DNA from: a virus
Reading direction: 5' to 3' (one strand)
DNA length: 24,845 bases
Virus record (IMG/VR): IMGVR_UViG_3300020469_000250
Location: 1-24,845 of that record
How positions within the stretch are numbered: the stretch's first letter is position 1; each line of letters opens with the position of its first letter. The notes below the pieces were generated by a model, which saw nothing but the letters and a program-made list of their open reading frames with translations, was not told the origin of the DNA and did not search any database. This document shows, one piece after another, positions 14,370 through 20,817 of this stretch. The position numbers were made by a program, and so were the translations under genes.

Positions 14370-14412
14370 TAATCCCTAGGCTCTGCTGTATTGCTTTTAG
14401 CTTTCATTACGC

Positions 14413-14440
14413 TTGCTCGAATGGGTGCATTTGTTATAAT
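14413..14440 (+). promoter_or_regulatory. sigma70-type promoter for the structured RNA and ATPase operon
   Basis: TTGCTC at 14413-14418 and a perfect TATAAT at 14435-14440 are separated by 16 bases. Transcription would start near 14447, at the beginning of the helix-rich non-coding segment and about 510 bases before the first coding sequence. Confidence 0.65.
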
Positions 14441-14446
14441 CCCTTT

Positions 14447-14836
14447 ATGGAAACGACTTTTGACCTACACGATTTTCCAGAGCGACAAGTTCTGTCGCTT
14501 AGTCGTGGAGATAATATGGAGGGTAGAAACGATAGGCTAGTCTAATTTTGCTTTGACCGCTTGCGGAAAACATCTAGAGAAGGTGGCAAGCGTGGAGTCA
14601 ATCCTTGGCTCTTTAACTCAGGAAGGAAAACTCGCCGACAGGCTGATGAGGTAGAACAATAAATCCTCGGACTGACAGCGAAACAAGACAAGGATGTCGC
14701 AAAATGTAAATGATGGTCACTACCGAGTGACGAATGGATGAATAGAGCAGAGTGACAGAGACCGCTAACTCATCCGACTCTGGAACGAGAATAAAAAAAC
14801 ATTTATGTAAAACAAATTCCTTTAATAAAATTTTTT
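14447..14836 (+). ncRNA. large structured non-coding RNA, unassigned family
   Basis: No good coding frame covers this stretch, and it is more GC-rich than nearby intergenic DNA. Helices readable by eye are: 14453-14458 with 14501-14506 enclosing the perfect seven-pair hairpin 14481-14499; 14553-14564 with 14586-14601 (12 pairs with one internal loop); 14634-14643 (GCC-GACA-GGC); 14648-14651 with 14665-14668; 14687-14698; 14716-14731 (six pairs, ACCG loop); and the interleaved pair 14736-14741/14770-14775 and 14748-14753/14777-14782, which is a pseudoknot or a switch. I found no tmRNA, RNase P or group I intron signatures. Phage ornate RNAs such as GOLLD or ROOL are possible comparisons, but I cannot assign it. 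The 3' end would be generated by the ribozyme at 14871. Confidence 0.6.
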
Positions 14837-14865
14837 GTGAGGGATGGCTCTTTGCTGTCCCTCGC
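14837..14865 (+). other. strong hairpin before the first ribozyme
   Basis: GTGAGGGATGGC pairs with GCTGTCCCTCGC over twelve consecutive pairs (including G-U) around a TCTTT loop. There is no T run after it, so it is not a normal terminator. After ribozyme cleavage it would be close to the new 3' end of the upstream RNA and could protect it. Similar long hairpins lie upstream of the other two ribozymes. Confidence 0.7.
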
Positions 14866-14870
14866 AATAT

Positions 14871-14922
14871 CTGTCACGAGGTGTGTACCTCGTCTGATGA
14901 TGGAACGAAAGTTCCGAAACAG
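14871..14922 (+). ncRNA. type III hammerhead ribozyme 1, leader of the AAA+ ATPase gene
   Basis: Stem III is CTGT (14871-14874) with ACAG (14919-14922). The cleavage triplet is GTC, cut expected after 14875. Stem I is ACGAGGT/ACCTCGT (14876-14882, 14887-14893) with a GTGT loop. The core is CTGATGA (14894-14900). Stem II is GGAAC/GTTCC (14902-14906, 14911-14915) with a GAAA loop, followed by GAA (14916-14918). All invariant hammerhead nucleotides (C3 U4 G5 A6 N7 G8 A9, G12 A13 A14, U16.1 H17) are present. One extra U sits between A9 and stem II, a place where an extra nucleotide is known in a viroid hammerhead. Stem III is short. Confidence 0.85.
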
Positions 14923-14924
14923 TT

Positions 14925-14952
14925 CTTTTAACTTTCACAATTTGCGGAGGTG
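14925..14952 (+). promoter_or_regulatory. small-RNA target-like leader and ribosome-binding site 1
   Basis: CTTTTAACTTTC (14925-14936) and GGAGGTG (14946-14952) precede the ATG at 14957. Both blocks are exactly complementary to the small RNA encoded at 20290-20365. The pyrimidine-rich 12-mer could alternatively be a ribosomal protein S1 binding enhancer. Confidence 0.7.
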
Positions 14953-14956
14953 CAAT

Positions 14957-16033
14957 ATGAGTGAAGAAAATAAAATGATGGAAGCCTCTCCATCACAAGC
15001 TATGAGGCTAATGAAAAACATAACCGATGCGAGCAGAGTTCCGATGCTCTTAGGGGGTGTTGGTGTTGGGAAATCTGCAATCGTAAATGAGTTCGCTCAG
15101 GTGCTAGCAGAAGATAGAAATGTCGTTGAGACAATCAAGCCTAAGAAAAATGAATTCGGTTTCATTGATTTTAGAGCGAGTCTGTATGAGACGATTGAGT
15201 TGGGTGGTCTACCTTACATTGACAATGGTGAGCAGAGGAGAGCGTTTCTCGGAAACTTACCGACTCAAGGAGAGGGTCTACTTTTCATTGATGAGTTCGC
15301 ACAAGCGACAGCAGATATGCAAAAGCTTCTCGGACAGTTGGTCAATGAGAAAAGATTAGGTGAGTATCATTTACCAGAAGGTTGGAAAATTGCGATGGCG
15401 GGAAACAGAGCGAGCGATAGGTCAGGTGCTAACAAGGTGCTAGCGCATATGACTAACAGAGTGTCCTTGATACATTTCAAGCACGATGTAAACGATTGGC
15501 TCTCATGGGGTTCTGAGAATGGGGTTCATCCTTCTATCTTAGGGTTCATTAATTTTATGCCTAAGCTACTCTGGAAATTTGATGCTAAGGATACTAATCC
15601 TCAACCATCTCCGAGAGCGTGGTCGAGATTATCCGATGTCATAAAGGCTACGCCTGAGAGCGATAAGGATTTATTACCTTTTCACGCTCAGGGTAATGTT
15701 GGAATTGAAAGCGGATTAGAGTTTATGAATTTCATTACTCTGTCTCAGGATATTCCGAACCTTGCAGACATTGTCGATGGTAAGGAGGTCGATATTCCTG
15801 AGAGTCTGGGTCTTCAATATGCGACTGCAGTTGCTTTGGTTTCTGCGATTCAAGATGTAGACAAAAAACTACAGCCTAAATACTTCGAGAATTCTTTGAA
15901 GTGGATAGATACTTTTCCTTCGAAAGAGTTTTCTATCTTCTTTATGAGAGCGGTGGTTGGTGCTGTGCCTGAGTTAAAGAACACAAAAACTTTTTCGGTT
16001 TTCAATACTGAAAATAAAGATGTTCTAATTTAG
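14957..16033 (+). CDS. MoxR/CobS-like AAA+ ATPase
   Basis: 358 residues. Walker A is GGVGVGKS (33-40), Walker B LLFIDEF (108-114), and the sensor-1 region AGNRASDR lies near 148-155. The insertion before Walker B (IELGGLPYIDNGEQRRAFLG) and the overall length fit the MoxR/AAA_5 branch, whose members work as chaperones with VWA-domain partners; here that partner is encoded two genes downstream. The frame is open further upstream, but the ATG at 14957 follows GCGGAGGTGCA and is the only start outside the ribozyme leader. Expression should depend on leader processing and possibly on the small RNA. Substrate unknown; metal insertion (CobS), activation of a protein complex, or host take-over are all possible. 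Confidence 0.88.
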   Translation: MSEENKMMEASPSQAMRLMKNITDASRVPMLLGGVGVGKSAIVNEFAQVLAEDRNVVETIKPKKNEFGFIDFRASLYETIELGGLPYIDNGEQRRAFLGNLPTQGEGLLFIDEFAQATADMQKLLGQLVNEKRLGEYHLPEGWKIAMAGNRASDRSGANKVLAHMTNRVSLIHFKHDVNDWLSWGSENGVHPSILGFINFMPKLLWKFDAKDTNPQPSPRAWSRLSDVIKATPESDKDLLPFHAQGNVGIESGLEFMNFITLSQDIPNLADIVDGKEVDIPESLGLQYATAVALVSAIQDVDKKLQPKYFENSLKWIDTFPSKEFSIFFMRAVVGAVPELKNTKTFSVFNTENKDVLI

Positions 16034-16040
16034 TTTGAGT

Positions 16041-16083
16041 TGAGTGGGGAGAAATATTACTAGTAAATATTTTTCCCCCCTCG
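16041..16083 (+). other. long hairpin downstream of the ATPase gene, built on the ACTAGT repeat
   Basis: GAG-T-GGGGAGAAATATT pairs with AATATTTTTCCCC-C-CTC, giving about 16 pairs (one G-U) with a single mismatch around an ACTAGTA loop. It starts seven bases after the ATPase stop codon and ends eight bases before the second ribozyme. It lacks a final T run. A 3'-end stabiliser for the cleaved upstream message is the likeliest role. Confidence 0.7.
16059..16073 (+). repeat. ACTAGTAAATATTTT repeat, copy 1
   Basis: First of four exact 15-base copies (others at 19007, 20159 and 21373). With TT before it, the 17-mer is shared with copies 2 and 4, and TTTCCC following is shared with copy 2. Confidence 0.8.
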
Positions 16084-16090
16084 CTTTCAC

Positions 16091-16145
16091 AAACTGTAAT
16101 CGAGTGGGTACTCGGTCTGAAGATTGCAAAAGCATGAAACAGTTT
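16091..16145 (+). ncRNA. type III hammerhead ribozyme 2, leader of the DUF3150-like gene
   Basis: Stem III is AAACTGT (16091-16097) with ACAGTTT (16139-16145), seven pairs. The cleavage triplet is GTA, cut expected after 16098. Stem I is ATCGAGT/ACTCGGT (16099-16105, 16110-16116) with a GGGT loop. The core is CTGAAGA (16117-16123; A at the variable N7). Stem II is short, TGC/GCA (16125-16127, 16132-16134) with an AAAA loop and a flanking U-U pair, followed by GAA (16136-16138). Stem I and III sequences differ from copy 1 yet still pair, which is internal covariation evidence. The weak stem II is its least convincing part. Confidence 0.8.
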
Positions 16146-16175
16146 TTAACTTTCTTTTAATAAAATGCGGAGGTG
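16144..16175 (+). promoter_or_regulatory. small-RNA target-like leader and ribosome-binding site 2
   Basis: TTTTAACTTTCT (16144-16155) and GGAGGTG (16169-16175) precede the ATG at 16180. Both match the complement of the small RNA at 20290-20365; the spacer between the blocks is longer than in leaders 1 and 3. Confidence 0.65.
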
Positions 16176-16179
16176 CAAA

Positions 16180-17148
16180 ATGAAAAAGAAAAAAATTGAA
16201 ACCACAATAGGGGATACTTTTACTAAGGTCAGATTTTATTCGTCTGCGATTAGTGGTATCAAAAAAGACTCGGATGCGTCATGGGAAATGGCATATACAA
16301 ATGGCGCAGTCGAGGGTCAGGTAGCGGTAAACAAAAAAATCTTTGGTCGTGACATCAACAAAGAGTTTAGAAATATACAGAATAAATTTAGAAATAAAGT
16401 TCTGTATCCCACTACCTATCCTTGGACTGATGGTGATGAGATGACTTCTGAATGGAGAATAGTTTCTAATGAAAAGTATGACTTTTTAATGGAAGGATTC
16501 GAAAAGTATCAGAAGGAATTCTTTGACTTAGTGAATGAGATTAAGACCGACTATCTCAGTATGATTCAAGAAGGTATGGCGAGACTCGGTAAGCTTGCTA
16601 ACGAAGATGACTACAAGGATTGGATTGATATTGAACACAAGTTCAATTTCGCTATGGGAGTAGATGTTTTCACTTCGTATAACACTAGTAATGATACGAG
16701 GATTAATCTTTCTGAGAAGCAGAGAACAGCGATAGAGAATTCTATTGCCTCTAACTATGAAGCTAACTTCAAGTCTCTGTTAGAAGAGGAAAAGAAAACT
16801 CTCGAAGAGTCTGTTCAAAATATCATCGATGCTCTTAAGAAAGATGGCTCAGGAAAATCTTTCTTTAAAGACAGCGTATTCAAAAATCTGAAAGAAAAAG
16901 TTGAGAGGGTCAGAGACCTAAACAAAAATATCTATCAGAGTTCTGAGTTAGATAAAGCTATAGACATTATTGTTGGCTCGCTTGCTTCGGTAAATGACAT
17001 TGACTCATTGAGAGACAAGGGAGAAATCGGTAAGTCTAAAAGAGCGAAAGTCTCTGCGGATATGGAGAAAGCGAAGTCAAGCTTAAATCAAAATACGCTT
17101 GGCAAGATTTTCTCTGGTAGCGGATTATCGGAGGGGAACGATGAGTAA
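16180..17148 (+). CDS. helical partner protein of the ATPase module (DUF3150-like)
   Basis: 322 residues, charged and mostly helical, with coiled-coil-like stretches (SNYEANFKSLLEEEKKTLEE, then KNLKEKVERVRDLNKNIYQS). The N-terminal region has NGAVEGQVAVNKKIFGRDIN and KVLYPTTYPWTDGDEMTSEW. No catalytic motif is visible. From memory, DUF3150 proteins are found between CobS-like ATPases and CobT/VWA-like proteins in phages and plasmids. Gene order and the helical pattern agree, but this is not an alignment. The ATG at 16180 follows GCGGAGGTGC, and the gene overlaps the next start by eight bases. Probably a structural or adaptor subunit of the ATPase-VWA complex. Confidence 0.75.
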   Translation: MKKKKIETTIGDTFTKVRFYSSAISGIKKDSDASWEMAYTNGAVEGQVAVNKKIFGRDINKEFRNIQNKFRNKVLYPTTYPWTDGDEMTSEWRIVSNEKYDFLMEGFEKYQKEFFDLVNEIKTDYLSMIQEGMARLGKLANEDDYKDWIDIEHKFNFAMGVDVFTSYNTSNDTRINLSEKQRTAIENSIASNYEANFKSLLEEEKKTLEESVQNIIDALKKDGSGKSFFKDSVFKNLKEKVERVRDLNKNIYQSSELDKAIDIIVGSLASVNDIDSLRDKGEIGKSKRAKVSADMEKAKSSLNQNTLGKIFSGSGLSEGNDE

Positions 17149-18658
17149 TTACGATAAATCGAAGAGGGCATTACATGGTGTCCTCTCTGGAAATGAAGTC
17201 ATGGTTAAAGCTAAGAGCAAGCTAATGAATTCTGAATCTGGTCTAGCTTCGATTCTTTTGGGTCTGCCTTTAGAAGAAGACAATTCTTTTGACACGATGG
17301 CGACAGATGGCAAGGTCATAAAATACAATTCTGATTTTGCTCTCGGTATTCCTATGGAGGAAATCAAAGGTGTCCTAATTCATGAGGCTCTTCATGTTGT
17401 CTGGGGTCATCACCTTAGAAGAGGGAACAGAAATCCTAAGCTTTGGAATATTGCTACTGATTATGCAATCAATGGCTATATTGTTTACAAGCTTAGAAAG
17501 CAGTTGCCTCAAGGTGGTTTGCTCTCTCATAGGTATGTCAAAAAAGATGGCTCAGTCATGAGTGCGGATGAAATCTACGACATTTTGTTTGGTGATGATG
17601 AGGCTCTCGAAGAGGCTATCAATGAGATGCAAGAACAAATGGGCGATGACTCAGACGAGAATGAGGGTCAAGGTCAGGATGATTCTGAAGAGGATACTCA
17701 AGGCTCTGGCGATGGCGATGGCGATGAAGAATCTGATGAGGATTCCGAAGGTCAGGGTTCAGGCGGAAGCGCAGAGGATGAAGGCGTTGATAAAAATATT
17801 ACTAGTCAGGGTTTGTCCGATGAGCGTTCTCCTCAGACTAATCAGTCAGGCAAGATTGATTTGAATGAGTTGCCTCAGATGGCGGGCGGTATTTTCGACA
17901 TGACTAACGAAGATGGTTCTAAGCTTTCAGAAGGAGAGACTCAGGAACAGATTACTTTGCTTGATGCTCAGGTAGTGATGGCAGAGAAAGTGCAAGGGAT
18001 GCTTGTCTCTGGCGGTTCTGGTGTTGATTACCTCGGAGGTCGTAAGGCTGAGTTGGTTGAACAGGTTGTACCTTGGGAAGATATGTTTAGAGATATGTTC
18101 TCTCAGGTTGCCTCTAACAATAATACTTGGAGGATGCCTCATAGAAGACATATGGCTCGTGGAATTCATATGCCTAGCAAGGACATTGAGCCATCAATCA
18201 AGAATGTCGTTATGTTGGTTGATGTTTCTGGTTCTACTTCTGGCGATAGAGACTCATTCATTACTGAGGCGATTGCTATCATGGAAGAGTTTCAAGTTCA
18301 AAAGTTATCGGTCAATAGATATGCAGGCATAGCCTTGCGTAATAAACAGGGCGAATACTTTGATGTCTGGGATTCTGAGCAAGGTGACGAGATGCCTGAG
18401 AAAGAAGAGATTAATTTCTCTGGGTCAGGAGGCACAAACTTTGATGCGCCTTTCAATGCTGTCGAAGAGTTCCTTGACCTTGATGAGATAGACTTGATTG
18501 TTCACTTCTCGGATGGCGAAGGCTACTTCAAAGATGACCATGATGAGTTGCTTGATACTCCTATCTGCCATGTCTTTAGTTATGGTAAGGATGGCGATAA
18601 CTATGGAGGCAAAGGTGTCGAAGAGTTAGGATTCGGAGATGTTATCTACATGAGTTAA
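17141..18658 (+). CDS. metallopeptidase-like and VWA-domain protein (DUF2201/COG3864 type, CobT-like)
   Basis: 505 residues. The N-terminal domain has HEALHVVWGHH (HExxH at 81-85 plus a following His), the zinc-site pattern of the predicted metallopeptidases in this family. Residues of about 163-215 form a Glu/Asp/Gly/Ser-rich acidic linker like that of CobT. The C-terminal VWA-like domain carries the MIDAS motif DVSGSTS (361-367), GGTNFD (430-435) and HFSDGEGYF near 455. A protein with these domains downstream of a MoxR-like ATPase is the classical ATPase/VWA pairing. The ATG at 17141 follows GGAGGGG inside the end of the previous gene. Peptidase activity is predicted from the zinc motif and not shown. 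Confidence 0.85.
   Translation: MSNYDKSKRALHGVLSGNEVMVKAKSKLMNSESGLASILLGLPLEEDNSFDTMATDGKVIKYNSDFALGIPMEEIKGVLIHEALHVVWGHHLRRGNRNPKLWNIATDYAINGYIVYKLRKQLPQGGLLSHRYVKKDGSVMSADEIYDILFGDDEALEEAINEMQEQMGDDSDENEGQGQDDSEEDTQGSGDGDGDEESDEDSEGQGSGGSAEDEGVDKNITSQGLSDERSPQTNQSGKIDLNELPQMAGGIFDMTNEDGSKLSEGETQEQITLLDAQVVMAEKVQGMLVSGGSGVDYLGGRKAELVEQVVPWEDMFRDMFSQVASNNNTWRMPHRRHMARGIHMPSKDIEPSIKNVVMLVDVSGSTSGDRDSFITEAIAIMEEFQVQKLSVNRYAGIALRNKQGEYFDVWDSEQGDEMPEKEEINFSGSGGTNFDAPFNAVEEFLDLDEIDLIVHFSDGEGYFKDDHDELLDTPICHVFSYGKDGDNYGGKGVEELGFGDVIYMS
17793..17806 (-). repeat. partial inverted copy of the ACTAGT-AATATTTT repeat
   Basis: AAAATATTACTAGT inside the acidic linker region of the VWA gene is the reverse complement of ACTAGTAATATTTT, one base shorter than the standard repeat. 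It may be chance. Confidence 0.35.
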
Positions 18659-18674
18659 TCTCAATGAGCGTTCT

Positions 18675-18721
18675 GAGAGGAGGTTTTTAGGGTGATAGTA
18701 AGCCTTAGCCTCCTCTCTTTT
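18675..18721 (+). terminator. terminator-like hairpin after the VWA gene
   Basis: GAGAGGAGG (18675-18683) pairs perfectly with CCTCCTCTC (18709-18717) and is followed by TTTT. The loop is 25 bases, so termination may be partial, allowing transcription into the third ribozyme leader. Confidence 0.7.
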
Positions 18722-18759
18722 CGTCTGCGAGAGAGCCTCTATGGAGGTCAAATTTAGTA

Positions 18760-18843
18760 AACTGATAGGGAGAATGTGTGTTTTCCCCTGATGACTCTAT
18801 ATGAGAGCGTGTAAGCGTTGGTTCAAAAGAATCGAAATCAGTT
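18760..18843 (+). ncRNA. type III hammerhead-like ribozyme 3 with a 25-nt insertion
   Basis: Stem III is AACTGAT (18760-18766) with ATCAGTT (18837-18843). The cleavage triplet is ATA, cut expected after 18767. Stem I is GGGAGAA/TTTTCCC (18768-18774, 18781-18787) with a TGTGTG loop. The core is CTGATGA (18788-18794). Stem II is GGTTC/GAATC (18820-18824, 18829-18833) with an AAAA loop, then GAA (18834-18836). Between A9 and stem II lie 25 extra bases, which can form two small hairpins. The extra U of copy 1 occupies the same place. All helices have new sequences but keep pairing. Activity is less certain than for copy 1. Confidence 0.68.
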
Positions 18844-18844
18844 C

Positions 18845-18868
18845 CTTTTAACTTTCAAATGCGAGGTG
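18845..18868 (+). promoter_or_regulatory. small-RNA target-like leader and ribosome-binding site 3
   Basis: CTTTTAACTTTC (18845-18856) is identical to leader 1, and GAGGTG (18863-18868) precedes the ATG at 18872. Both blocks are complementary to the small RNA at 20290-20365. Confidence 0.68.
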
Positions 18869-18871
18869 CAT

Positions 18872-19054
18872 ATGAAAACTTTATATAAAAAGTTTATGAG
18901 TCTTTTCAAAACTCAAAAGGTGGAAGATAAACCTTATTATCTTTCGTATGAAAATGGTGGAGTTCTTGTTTTACAGAAACCTGTAGCACAGGATAGAGAA
19001 AATGTTACTAGTAAATATTTTTCCCTAGTCCACAAAACAGGAGGTGCGCTATGA
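18872..19054 (+). CDS. small protein, 60 aa, unknown
   Basis: The protein begins MKTLYKKFMSLFKTQKVEDK and continues PYYLSYENGGVLVLQKPVAQ. The N-terminus is basic and could form an amphipathic helix; no membrane segment is evident. The start follows GCGAGGTGCAT, the third copy of the module's leader, which is why I choose it over an upstream in-frame ATG inside the ribozyme. The end contains ACTAGTAAATATTTT translated in frame (VTSKYFS). Its stop overlaps the next start (ATGA), so it may mainly serve to couple translation to the ART-like gene. Confidence 0.75.
   Translation: MKTLYKKFMSLFKTQKVEDKPYYLSYENGGVLVLQKPVAQDRENVTSKYFSLVHKTGGAL
19007..19021 (+). repeat. ACTAGTAAATATTTT repeat, copy 2
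   Basis: Exact copy inside the end of the 60-aa gene. Flanking bases allow a hairpin of about nine pairs around the ACTAGT centre, weaker than that at 16041-16083. Confidence 0.8.
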
Positions 19055-20058
19055 GTCTTATTTCAAAAGCTAATCCTACATGGTTGAATTTGGATGTTAT
19101 TGAAGAACATTTCTCTACCATGCCTCAAGCAAGTGTCTACAAAATGGATGGTCACTTTAGTGTTGAGAGTAGATACAACACTTGCGACTCGGATGCTGTG
19201 TTCATTACTTCTATGCTTGACTATGTAGATGTCAATGGAGAATGGATTGATAGGTTCATTGATGAGGATGTTTTGCTCGAAGAGTTAAAGGCTCATATGC
19301 AAAACCTTCATGGAAACGAGGATGAAATGAATGATACTCTCGAAGATAATCTCTCATGGGATTGTCATAAGCGAGAGTATGGAGGGCGAGGTAATTTCAT
19401 GCTTCACCATCCATTAATTATTTCAATCATGTATCCATCTATACCTTGGCAAATTCATGAAACTAATCTCAGGTATTGGTTGAAGGTTGTTGCTCTGAGG
19501 AAAGCTTATCTTGAAAAAGATATTGACTCTTACTTGATGACGATAGAAAGACCTTATCGAGTGCCTGAGTTTATTCGTTGGTGCTTACATGACAAGCAGA
19601 AAAATGATTGTAATCCCCATAAATTTACTAAGCATTGTAATCTCTCAAAAGAAAAGTATTGGGAGGTTGTTCGTTGGTTGTGGACTGATACAGAGAATAT
19701 CTACGAGCATTTTGTCGCTTGGATGGCTCTGATATTAGACCACGATACGAAAGACATAAGGCTCATGATGGATAAAGAAGACAAGAAAACCTTTGACTCT
19801 TTACCTGACGAGTTCACAGTCTATCGAGGTGGAGAGTACGAGCATATGTCTTGGACTTTGAGCAAAGAAAAAGCTGAATGGTTTAGAGATAGATACAAAG
19901 GGTTGCAAGACTGCAAGCTTTTTGAGAAGCGTATCAAGAAGGATGAGGTGCTTGCTTATATCAATGCAAGAGGCGAGGAGGAGATTATTCTCAGACCTCC
20001 ATCCGAAACCTTTGTTGATTTCTGTATCGAAGAACAATTCAGAATAACGAAAGCATAA
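19051..20058 (+). CDS. protein with ADP-ribosyltransferase-like C-terminal domain
   Basis: 335 residues. The first 230 are unfamiliar, with aromatic-rich helical parts (IRWCLHDKQKNDC, EKYWEVVRWLWTDTENIYEH). The C-terminus shows EFTVYRGGEYEH with R259, SWTLSKEKAEWFRDRY (267-282) and ARGEEEIILRP with E309/E311. This R / S-T-S / E-x-E order and spacing is the signature of arginine-type mono-ADP-ribosyltransferases such as the T4 Alt/Mod enzymes. I infer NAD-dependent modification of a host target; catalysis is not shown. It is the last gene before the strong terminator and is translationally coupled to the 60-aa gene, with AGGAGGTGC just before its start. Confidence 0.75.
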   Translation: MSLISKANPTWLNLDVIEEHFSTMPQASVYKMDGHFSVESRYNTCDSDAVFITSMLDYVDVNGEWIDRFIDEDVLLEELKAHMQNLHGNEDEMNDTLEDNLSWDCHKREYGGRGNFMLHHPLIISIMYPSIPWQIHETNLRYWLKVVALRKAYLEKDIDSYLMTIERPYRVPEFIRWCLHDKQKNDCNPHKFTKHCNLSKEKYWEVVRWLWTDTENIYEHFVAWMALILDHDTKDIRLMMDKEDKKTFDSLPDEFTVYRGGEYEHMSWTLSKEKAEWFRDRYKGLQDCKLFEKRIKKDEVLAYINARGEEEIILRPPSETFVDFCIEEQFRITKA

Positions 20059-20080
20059 AAAAAACAAGGAAGTAAAAACT

Positions 20081-20130
20081 AGCGGAGGCTATGTAGTATT
20101 AATTTACTGCATAGCTTCCGCTTTTTTTTT
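20081..20130 (+). terminator. strong intrinsic terminator of the plus-strand module
   Basis: AGCGGAGGCTATG (20081-20093) pairs with CATAGCTTCCGCT (20110-20122) over 13 pairs including one G-U. Inner AGTA/TACT pairing extends the stem, and a run of nine T follows. It lies about 20 bases after the ART-like gene. On the opposite strand an A tract precedes the stem, so it may be bidirectional. Confidence 0.93.
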
Positions 20131-20158
20131 GGTCTAAATTCCTCCCCGAAAAACGATG

Positions 20159-20173
20159 ACTAGTAAATATTTT
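20159..20173 (+). repeat. ACTAGTAAATATTTT repeat, copy 3
   Basis: Exact copy in the intergenic region, about 48 bases before the first DnaA box. It makes an AT-rich stretch that could serve as a DNA-unwinding segment. Confidence 0.8.
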
Positions 20174-20220
20174 TTAAGCAGGCTGGTGTGCTGGGTTCAA
20201 ACAGGTGAGAAAAAATTGTA

Positions 20221-20241
20221 TGTGGATAACTCTGTGGATAA
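20221..20241 (-). promoter_or_regulatory. two perfect DnaA boxes (possible origin or DnaA-controlled promoter)
   Basis: TGTGGATAA occurs at 20221-20229 and again at 20233-20241, the exact complement of the DnaA consensus TTATCCACA, twelve bases apart. They lie 14 bases before the -35 box of the small-RNA promoter and between two replication-neutral gene blocks. They may mark a phage origin that recruits host DnaA, or make transcription DnaA-responsive. Confidence 0.72.
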
Positions 20242-20254
20242 GCTGTTAATAAAT

Positions 20255-20283
20255 TTGACGAGGTACAAGACGATTGTTATAAT
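20255..20283 (+). promoter_or_regulatory. consensus sigma70-type promoter of the small RNA
   Basis: TTGACG (20255-20260), a 17-base spacer and TATAAT (20278-20283) form the best promoter match in the window. The start would be near 20290. Confidence 0.85.
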
Positions 20284-20289
20284 TATTTT

Positions 20290-20365
20290 TTAAGTTAGGT
20301 GTTCATCACCTCCTTTGAGAAAGTTAAAAGTTGAGAGAGGTAATAGACTGCCTCTCTCTTTTTTT
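20290..20365 (+). ncRNA. small antisense-type RNA complementary to the ribozyme-linked leaders
   Basis: A unit of about 76 nt between a consensus promoter and an intrinsic terminator (GAGAGAGG 20333-20340 / CCTCTCTC 20351-20358, then seven T). It holds CACCTCC (20307-20313), complementary to GGAGGTG ribosome-binding sites, and GAAAGTTAAAAG (20319-20330), the exact complement of the 12-mer in leaders 1 and 3 (leader 2 also offers a 12-base match, shifted by one). The two blocks stand in the correct order to pair with all three leaders at once. A 5' hairpin AGGTG/CACCT (20297-20311) would partly hide the anti-ribosome-binding-site block. No coding frame of note. I infer a trans-acting repressor of translation; the target set is predicted by complementarity alone. 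Confidence 0.72.
20333..20365 (+). terminator. terminator of the small RNA
   Basis: An eight-pair GAGAGAGG/CCTCTCTC stem with a ten-base loop and seven T. It follows the complementary region directly, as in many bacterial small RNAs where the terminator is part of the RNA. Confidence 0.9.
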
Positions 20366-20407
20366 ATATAATAAGTAAATGGTTTTTTTTCATGACCATT
20401 CTCCCAA

Positions 20408-20461
20408 GAGGAGGTGCTAGACGAAAGATAATTCTCCAAATTGTTATACTAGTATCTCCTC
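20408..20461. repeat. inverted repeat GAGGAG...CTCCTC
   Basis: GAGGAG (20408-20413) and CTAG (20417-20420) are mirrored by CTAG (20449-20452) and CTCCTC (20456-20461). GGAGGTGCTAG here also matches the ribosome-binding-site motif but has no gene behind it, so it might act as a decoy or partner for the small RNA, or as an operator for the promoter at 20474. Confidence 0.4.
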
Positions 20462-20473
20462 GCTAAATTAAAA

Positions 20474-20502
20474 TTGAATTACTGATAGCATTTCTCTACA
20501 AT
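20474..20502 (+). promoter_or_regulatory. promoter giving a probably leaderless message
   Basis: TTGAAT (20474-20479), 17 bases, TACAAT (20497-20502). The ATG of the next gene begins seven bases after the -10 box, where transcription would start, and no ribosome-binding site is possible in between. Confidence 0.65.
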
Positions 20503-20508
20503 AGCATT

Positions 20509-20817
20509 ATGTATGCAGTTGTAAGACACACTTACGAATTAGATTTACCAGAGCCTTTTGTTAAGTCTTCTCAAAAAAGTGTTGGAAGATGGGTTCACAA
20601 AGTATGGGTACATGACTCTGAGTTAGATGCTATTGCTCATGCGATTAAATTACTTGATGAACCTCTACTAAAACATAATGAGTGGGCGATGGAGACAGCG
20701 ATAGAACAATTAAAAGTTAATAGGTTTTATCAGTTGGGTAAAGAAAGCGTAGCGATAGCGGAGGTAGAACCTTCGCCTGACATAGTGTACTTACATGAGG
20801 AAGATAATATTAATTAA
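20509..20817 (+). CDS. small protein, 102 aa, unknown, likely leaderless
   Basis: The protein starts MYAVVRHTYELDLPEPFVKS, followed by WVHKVWVHDSELDAIAHAIK, an alpha/beta pattern without catalytic or metal motifs. A later helix (NEWAMETAIEQLKVNRFYQL) and an acidic end follow. I recognise no family. The message probably begins at or next to the ATG (see the promoter entry). It is followed twelve bases later by the ribbon-helix-helix gene, suggesting a two-gene operon read early in infection. Confidence 0.72.
   Translation: MYAVVRHTYELDLPEPFVKSSQKSVGRWVHKVWVHDSELDAIAHAIKLLDEPLLKHNEWAMETAIEQLKVNRFYQLGKESVAIAEVEPSPDIVYLHEEDNIN

Follow-up and report, generated by a model that had tools for sequence, protein, structure and literature searches.

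A predicted phage small RNA complementary to the ribosome-binding regions of genes preceded by hammerhead-like ribozymes

Introduction

Bacterial trans-acting small RNAs that block Shine-Dalgarno (SD) sequences are short, have their own promoter, end at an intrinsic terminator and pair imperfectly, in two parts, with the ribosome-binding site. The c4 RNA of P1/P7 is processed out of the transcript that also carries its target, and hok/Sok and RNAII/RNAIII of pIP501 are antisense pairs that each come from one locus. A phage antisense RNA, c4 binds in the region of a ribosome-binding site and prevents translation; its complementary stretches probably lie in loops (PMC12197685). A 5' YUNR U-turn motif is associated with rapid sense/antisense contacts (PMC6562991). 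Hammerhead ribozymes flank phage genes and have been proposed to cut long transcripts, and in the HF1/HF2 haloviruses a hammerhead lies 13 nt upstream of the helicase start codon (PMC3088659); bacterial hammerheads are enriched near Mu-like phage genes (PMC10085705). Hammerheads in phages (PMC3088659) and phage antisense RNAs at ribosome-binding sites (c4; PMC12197685) are already known, separately. No report joining a trans-acting small RNA with hammerhead-processed phage messages was found among the titles and abstract beginnings listed by searches of open-licence PMC papers, and none of the terms small RNA, sRNA, ribozyme and antisense turned up when a two-pelagiphage transcriptome paper was searched for them (PMC12753301).

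Here we analyse a locus in a 24,845-nucleotide stretch of DNA from an uncultured phage (the window). Like c4, the RNA predicted from it is a phage antisense RNA at a ribosome-binding site; whereas c4 acts on an antirepressor message, the window RNA has its own promoter and fits several messages, each with a hammerhead-like element. Anatomy and two-part pairing are shared with the bacterial SD-blocking small RNAs, but the predicted targets are ribozyme-linked phage messages and the seeds of the phage RNAs differ almost wholly between lineages.

Results

Anatomy of the small RNA gene

A first-pass annotation had placed at 20255-20365 a consensus promoter with a 17-base spacer, then about 76 nt of RNA, then an intrinsic terminator. 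All three are present on the plus strand, the promoter being near consensus. The sigma70-type promoter (20255..20283) reads TTGACG-17-TATAAT with a TG before the -10. The small RNA spans 20290..20365 (about 76 nt; its start is predicted). Its fold comprises a 5' hairpin, AGGTG-TTCAT-CACCT (20297..20311), a stretch containing the anti-SD box CACCTCC (20307..20313) and GAAAGTTAAAAG (box 2; 20319..20330), and a terminator (20333..20365) whose stem, 20333-20358, is followed by a T-run. The CACCT is partly paired within the 5' hairpin, and the anti-SD box of the window is mostly paired (unpaired 0.37). Box 2 is complementary to a stretch 5' of the SD in three leaders. The small RNA matches no known sRNA family model in Rfam.

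Between 12000 and 24845 the promoter ranks top among 28 promoter-like sites (11/12 matches). Such sites are not enriched as a class, 34.0 being expected from shuffles, so the case rests on the score of this one site and on its conservation: close relatives have an equivalent promoter. Promoters are weaker in many other lineages; 12 of the 23 examined outscore 90% of random windows. The upstream gene has a separate terminator (stem 20081-20122), and the small RNA therefore looks like a unit of its own. The window clade thus meets one criterion for a trans-acting base-pairing sRNA, namely an independent promoter and an intrinsic terminator in an intergenic position. Downstream lies a gene for a 102-aa protein (MYAVVRHT...; 20509..20817, plus strand), which we used as a marker to locate the syntenic RNA elsewhere.

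Complementarity to three leaders

Three plus-strand leaders, at 14925, 16143 and 18845, match the two boxes, and each lies at the 3' edge of a hammerhead-like ribozyme. Site 1 (14925..14952) consists of CTTTTAACTTTC and GGAGGTG, with the SD in the loop of TTGC-GGAGGT-GCAA, and precedes an ATPase gene (14957..16033; PHROG 1297, 358 aa). Site 2 (16143..16175), TTTTTAACTTTC and GGAGGTG with the SD in the loop of TGC-GGAGGT-GCA, precedes a partner gene of 322 aa without Pfam or PHROG match (16180..17148), next to which a DUF2201 gene begins at 17141. Site 3 (18845..18868), CTTTTAACTTTC and GAGGTG with the SD in the loop of ATGC-GAGGT-GCAT, precedes a 60-aa gene (18872..19054) that overlaps an ART-like gene of 335 aa at 19051; the three target genes lie on the plus strand. 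The upstream stretch is exact at 14925 and 18845 and carries one change at 16143, making that pair G-U; the SD portion reads GGAGGTG at 14946 and 16169, but GAGGTG at 18863. The 6-7 plus 12 pairs annotated earlier are therefore found in all three leaders, one of them as a wobble in the second, and the two-box complementarity is borne out, except that the spacing between the boxes differs between RNA and leaders. The observation of an sRNA-like element complementary to three leaders is confirmed.

This complementarity exceeds chance, a further criterion for an sRNA being complementarity of this kind to translation-initiation regions of mRNAs. Core-duplex energies, computed with a 24-nt core of the small RNA, are -24.3, -23.0 and -21.9 kcal/mol for the three leaders, the best three among 39 predicted window leaders (some of doubtful genes); the next is -17.0. 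Random 75-mers equalled the three leaders in only 3, 3 and 10 of 3,976 cases (windows containing the box excluded), and one of 500 dinucleotide shuffles of the 5' part of the RNA matched the third-best target energy. With self-folding of both RNAs allowed, the three come first, third and fourth among the 39; the leader in second place belongs to a 49-codon TTG frame, whose status as a gene we doubt. Scrambling box 2 in silico weakened net binding from -12.9, -10.7 and -12.1 to -6.4, -3.2 and -6.1, whereas altering the anti-SD left it at -13.1, -8.2 and -11.0, barely weaker for two of the three targets. Box 2 hence carries most of the predicted binding.

In the window, 1.4-5.4 kb separate the small RNA gene from its sites. 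No hammerhead was found before the ART-like gene (19051) or the DUF2201 gene (17141), and both would be reached only through coupling to the preceding gene. Neither product had a sequence match in the PDB, with E limits of 1 for the 335-aa protein and 0.1 for the DUF2201 protein.

Conservation in close relatives

The ATPase is encoded at 83-89% identity on ten IMG/VR contigs. The syntenic RNA could be read in seven of them (L002, L003, L005, L007, L008, L009, L010) and in L045; the contigs L001, L004 and L006, only 5.5-7.4 kb long, break off shortly past the third leader. CACCTCC and GAAAGTTAAAAG are the same in all eight relatives and the window. The 5' part of the RNA is very different, with a second hairpin and another spacer in the relatives; promoter and terminator are kept. 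The terminator is in fact identical in the window and five aligned relatives, so conservation alone does not single out the boxes. BLASTN of 14400-20500 against the phage collection gave no match.

Pairing is retained as well. In the relatives G002, G003, G001 and G004, with 79, 83, 57 and 51 predicted leaders respectively, these three again take the first three places. A 96-aa gene for which no hammerhead was found pairs at -19.3 in these four genomes, ranking fourth or fifth, and with self-folding allowed the ATPase leader falls outside the top 8 in G002 and G003. Duplex prediction with the whole 5' part of the relatives' longer RNAs was abandoned as noise, since it ignores self-structure; restriction to the core worked.

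In G002-G005 a fourth hammerhead cassette, with CTTTTAACTTTT and GAGGTG, precedes a small gene. By eye, the flank before the window's ATPase hammerhead (14820-14880) resembles the flank of this fourth cassette in G002. To judge from sequence, the window may have lost the cassette and its small gene through recombination between cassettes.

Read on the minus strand, the window at 20328 gives CTTTTAACTTTC, GGAGGTG and an ATG, much like a leader, which raises the question of whether the locus is merely an inverted leader copy and its complementarity a functionless relic of duplication. We regard this as very improbable: the promoter and terminator lie on the plus strand and are kept in relatives, the minus-strand ATG is missing from close relatives, and complementarity persists across differing sequences, where a relic would lose it.

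Distribution in distant relatives

A profile scan brought in distant ATPases of 35-53% identity. A leader-driven scan of distant genomes for antisense sites by summed energies mostly returned the leaders' own reverse strands, but in G009 and G016 it exposed a site that was not such a self-match; a terminator follows it, and an orthologue of the window gene at 20509 lies downstream. We fetched loci with an alignment of this marker gene (A2) and kept the best 80 of 100, which with the window and seven close relatives make 88 loci; in the fetched loci the marker is 46-100% identical to that of L018. It has no match in the phage collection, and no relative was confirmed in genome contigs.

CCTCC and a terminator occur upstream of the marker in 67 of the 88 loci; 19 lack them by our rule and two are too short. 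The 67 loci with an sRNA-like element fall into 23 sequence clusters, the sequence being highly variable. Among the 19, three (L131, L142, L178) have a CCTCC just past the 95-nt limit, and 15 have at least one hammerhead-like leader; terminators were sought in 15 of the 19. Twelve loci have hammerhead-like leaders, yet no such RNA was found there. The frequency of CCTCC near terminators (23/38 versus 2/15) is circular, the loci having been chosen for the site, and was not counted as evidence.

CCUCC is at least 70% unpaired in 16 of 21 folded clusters, the window (0.37) and L002 (0.43) being among the five exceptions. Distant syntenic RNAs carry an anti-SD and a box 2 of their own: the RNA of L189 (the same contig as L032) reads AGACCTCC and AAGTTAGTT, and its ATPase leader AACTAACTT and GGAGGTCT. 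Complementarity in related phages, the lack of which had been named beforehand as grounds for refutation, holds in close and distant relatives alike.

Hammerhead-like elements and SD hairpins

Each target gene in the window is preceded on the plus strand by a hammerhead-like ribozyme: a type III element before the ATPase gene (14871..14922; no Rfam match), another before the partner gene (16091..16145), whose last three bases overlap site 2, and, before the 60-aa gene, one whose stem II region is enlarged (18760..18843). The criterion for type III, a CUGANGA and GAAA core with stems I and III correctly ordered, is met; one window core reads CUGAAGA, and some relatives deviate from the hammerhead core. 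Curated Rfam models detected no hammerhead at gathering score in the window or 13 loci, nor did an Rfam search of 14400-20500 at E up to 10, and in many elements the base of stem II shows a mismatch or an additional nucleotide. For these reasons we call the elements hammerhead-like and treat cleavage as inferred. Extra hairpins are present in the stem II region upstream of the ATPase gene in L038, L041 and L043, as in window 18760-18843; they possibly represent an enlarged hammerhead form.

All 40 type III elements scoring at least 18 in 18 loci have an SD and ATG within 85 nt, and none arose in three first-order shuffles per locus. The available parts of the papers on phage hammerheads mention no small RNA partner (PMC3088659, PMC10085705), whereas here every one of these high-scoring elements directly precedes a ribosome-binding site. 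In the closest named phages by terminase (53-60% identity), HTVC027P, HTVC023P, DSL-LC04 and 023Pt_psg01, no type III hammerhead-like element scoring at least 16 was found in the first 50 kb of each.

A looser rule, which lets in type I forms as well, gave 62 hammerhead leaders; a few of them, such as the third leader of L125, are probably false hits. The SD lies in a hairpin loop (stem score at least 4) in 42 of these 62, while among other SD leaders the figure is 48 of 217 (Fisher p 8e-11); 200 flank shuffles of the 62 gave a mean of 18.7 and a maximum of 28. The stems vary widely (ATTAC/GTAAT, TGTCC/GGACA, AATTC/GAATT, TTGC/GCAA). The loop of the best SD hairpin is TTGGAG in 18 of the 62, and the UUGG of this UUGGAG loop fits the YUNR motif. 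Antisense RNAs such as hok/Sok and RNAII/RNAIII of pIP501 are likewise loop-targeting; unlike theirs, the window RNA gene is distant from several sites, and the window loops read GGAGGT or GAGGT.

Covariation of the RNA with hammerhead leaders

For 18 cluster representatives with hammerhead-like leaders in the same locus, we compared duplexes of each RNA with its own leaders and with those of other lineages. The mean was -20.19 kcal/mol for cognate and -15.32 kcal/mol for non-cognate pairs (z -8.0), and none of 20,000 permutations was as good. With CCTCC masked, the means were -9.97 and -7.37 (0/20,000, z -5.7). Two lineages fit poorly, L159 and L127 ranking their own leaders 15th and 10th of 18. 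Lineages are not independent samples; kinship, we infer, should improve non-cognate pairs rather than worsen them.

CCUCC imitates the 3' end of 16S rRNA, and the RNA might accordingly be a general SD blocker that dampens all strong phage or host ribosome-binding sites and has no special targets. A stricter run (n=16, fixed 42-nt leaders, without L002, which is near the window, and L151, which has fewer than four other leaders) bears on this point. Hammerhead leaders gave z -7.4 in full and -5.4 masked; other SD leaders showed a weak cognate effect, z -3.4 (7/20,000) in full and -2.2 (264/20,000) masked, as such a blocker might. It would also account for CCUCC being the most constant feature of the RNA, though this was a search criterion too, and for the good pairing of the gene without a hammerhead. 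Within loci, however, hammerhead leaders out-pair other SD leaders in 16 of 17 cases (above 0.5; mean AUC 0.86), and with CCTCC masked in 13 of 17 (AUC 0.67), four showing no preference. Moreover, RNA sequence beyond the anti-SD covaries with hammerhead leaders, whereas no such signal is detectable for other leaders: when the RNA downstream of CCTCC was set against the leader stretch preceding the SD, z was -7.1 (n=17; 0/20,000), as against z -1.4 for other leaders. The 5' flank of the RNA alone gave z 3.1 (n=17; 62/20,000) and 1.2, respectively. We hence consider unselective blocking quite unlikely. The pattern suggests, at the level of sequence, that the RNA seed has changed in step with the hammerhead leaders, as would serve a joint switch-off of those messages.

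Discussion

What the computations establish is an sRNA-like anatomy, its conservation, a preference for hammerhead leaders and the covariation of both pairing surfaces. We think it likely that these reflect a phage trans-acting antisense sRNA that represses translation of hammerhead-processed messages. The RNA would be made from a sigma70-type promoter of its own, which in the window follows directly on a DnaA-box-like array, and end at the intrinsic terminator, offering two pairing surfaces: the anti-SD CCUCC beside or within a hairpin, and the second box 3' of it. A hammerhead ribozyme would cut each target message shortly before the gene; the short leader that remains would carry a sequence box and, in many cases, an SD in the loop of a small hairpin. 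By pairing with the SD and the upstream box, the RNA would cover the ribosome-binding site, and translation of the ATPase, the partner and the 60-aa gene would be lowered jointly. The proposal that one small RNA co-regulates the ATPase, its partner and the 60-aa/ART-like genes is upheld in so far as the complementarity is kept in relatives; transcription of the RNA, ribozyme cutting, actual pairing, repression as the direction of the effect, and control by DnaA are all inferred.

The sign of the effect is not fixed by sequence. Pairing as described might instead protect cut messages or recruit a nuclease, or several leaders could serve as a sponge, their titration of the RNA freeing another target in the host, and host targets were outside the analysis. 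The predicted duplex covers the SD itself, which is hard to square with activation of the same message, and we hold a positive or stability effect to be unlikely.

Should joint repression prove correct, phage hammerheads, whose purpose is unclear, would gain a context: the short leaders they produce could be addressed collectively by a single RNA, and that RNA would be a phage sRNA that Rfam searches do not recognise. The covarying pairs form a natural collection of matched RNA-target sets, testable by swaps between lineages.

Directly upstream of the -35 of the small RNA lie, on the plus strand (20221..20252), two tandem TGTGGATAA sites (20221-20229, 20233-20241) and a degenerate third (20244-20252), which are DnaA-box-like by the DnaA-box consensus. 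Only two TTATNCACA-type sites occur in the window. Across clusters, 11 of 23 have one at most 250 nt upstream of CCTCC, compared with 3.2% of random windows, and strict two-box arrays are present in eight of 23, with none elsewhere in those eight loci. Of the 25 loci listed as having a box, many of which are close relatives, 16 have one that starts at -68 to -70 relative to the predicted RNA start, and L149 and L034 have one at -58 or -59; in L018, L117, L129, L133, L153, L169 and L189 the automatic start call or the spacing differs. The array could serve transcription control or be part of a replication origin. A bolder proposal, to which we give little weight, is a replication-coupled regulon: host DnaA at the boxes would set the level of the RNA, which would silence the ribozyme-cut messages, and the fast seed change (23 clusters) would reflect selection for lineage specificity, as in plasmid incompatibility, such that silencing by a resident phage's RNA is confined to close relatives that enter the same cell. 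In several lineages without the array, CACAACATCTTGTG-type palindromes, often two, were seen by eye in the same place (upstream of 7662 in L127, and in L128, L136 and L155).

Other repeats accompany the locus. The 15-base repeat ACTAGTAAATATTTT has four exact plus-strand copies in the window, at 16059, 19007, 20159 and 21373, and ACTRGTAAATA is found, in up to 11 copies, in 12 of the 14 genomes or contigs that were inspected. Downstream of the small RNA, at 20399-20465, GAGGAGGTGCTAG and a near-complementary partner form an inverted repeat that, by eye, is kept in close relatives.
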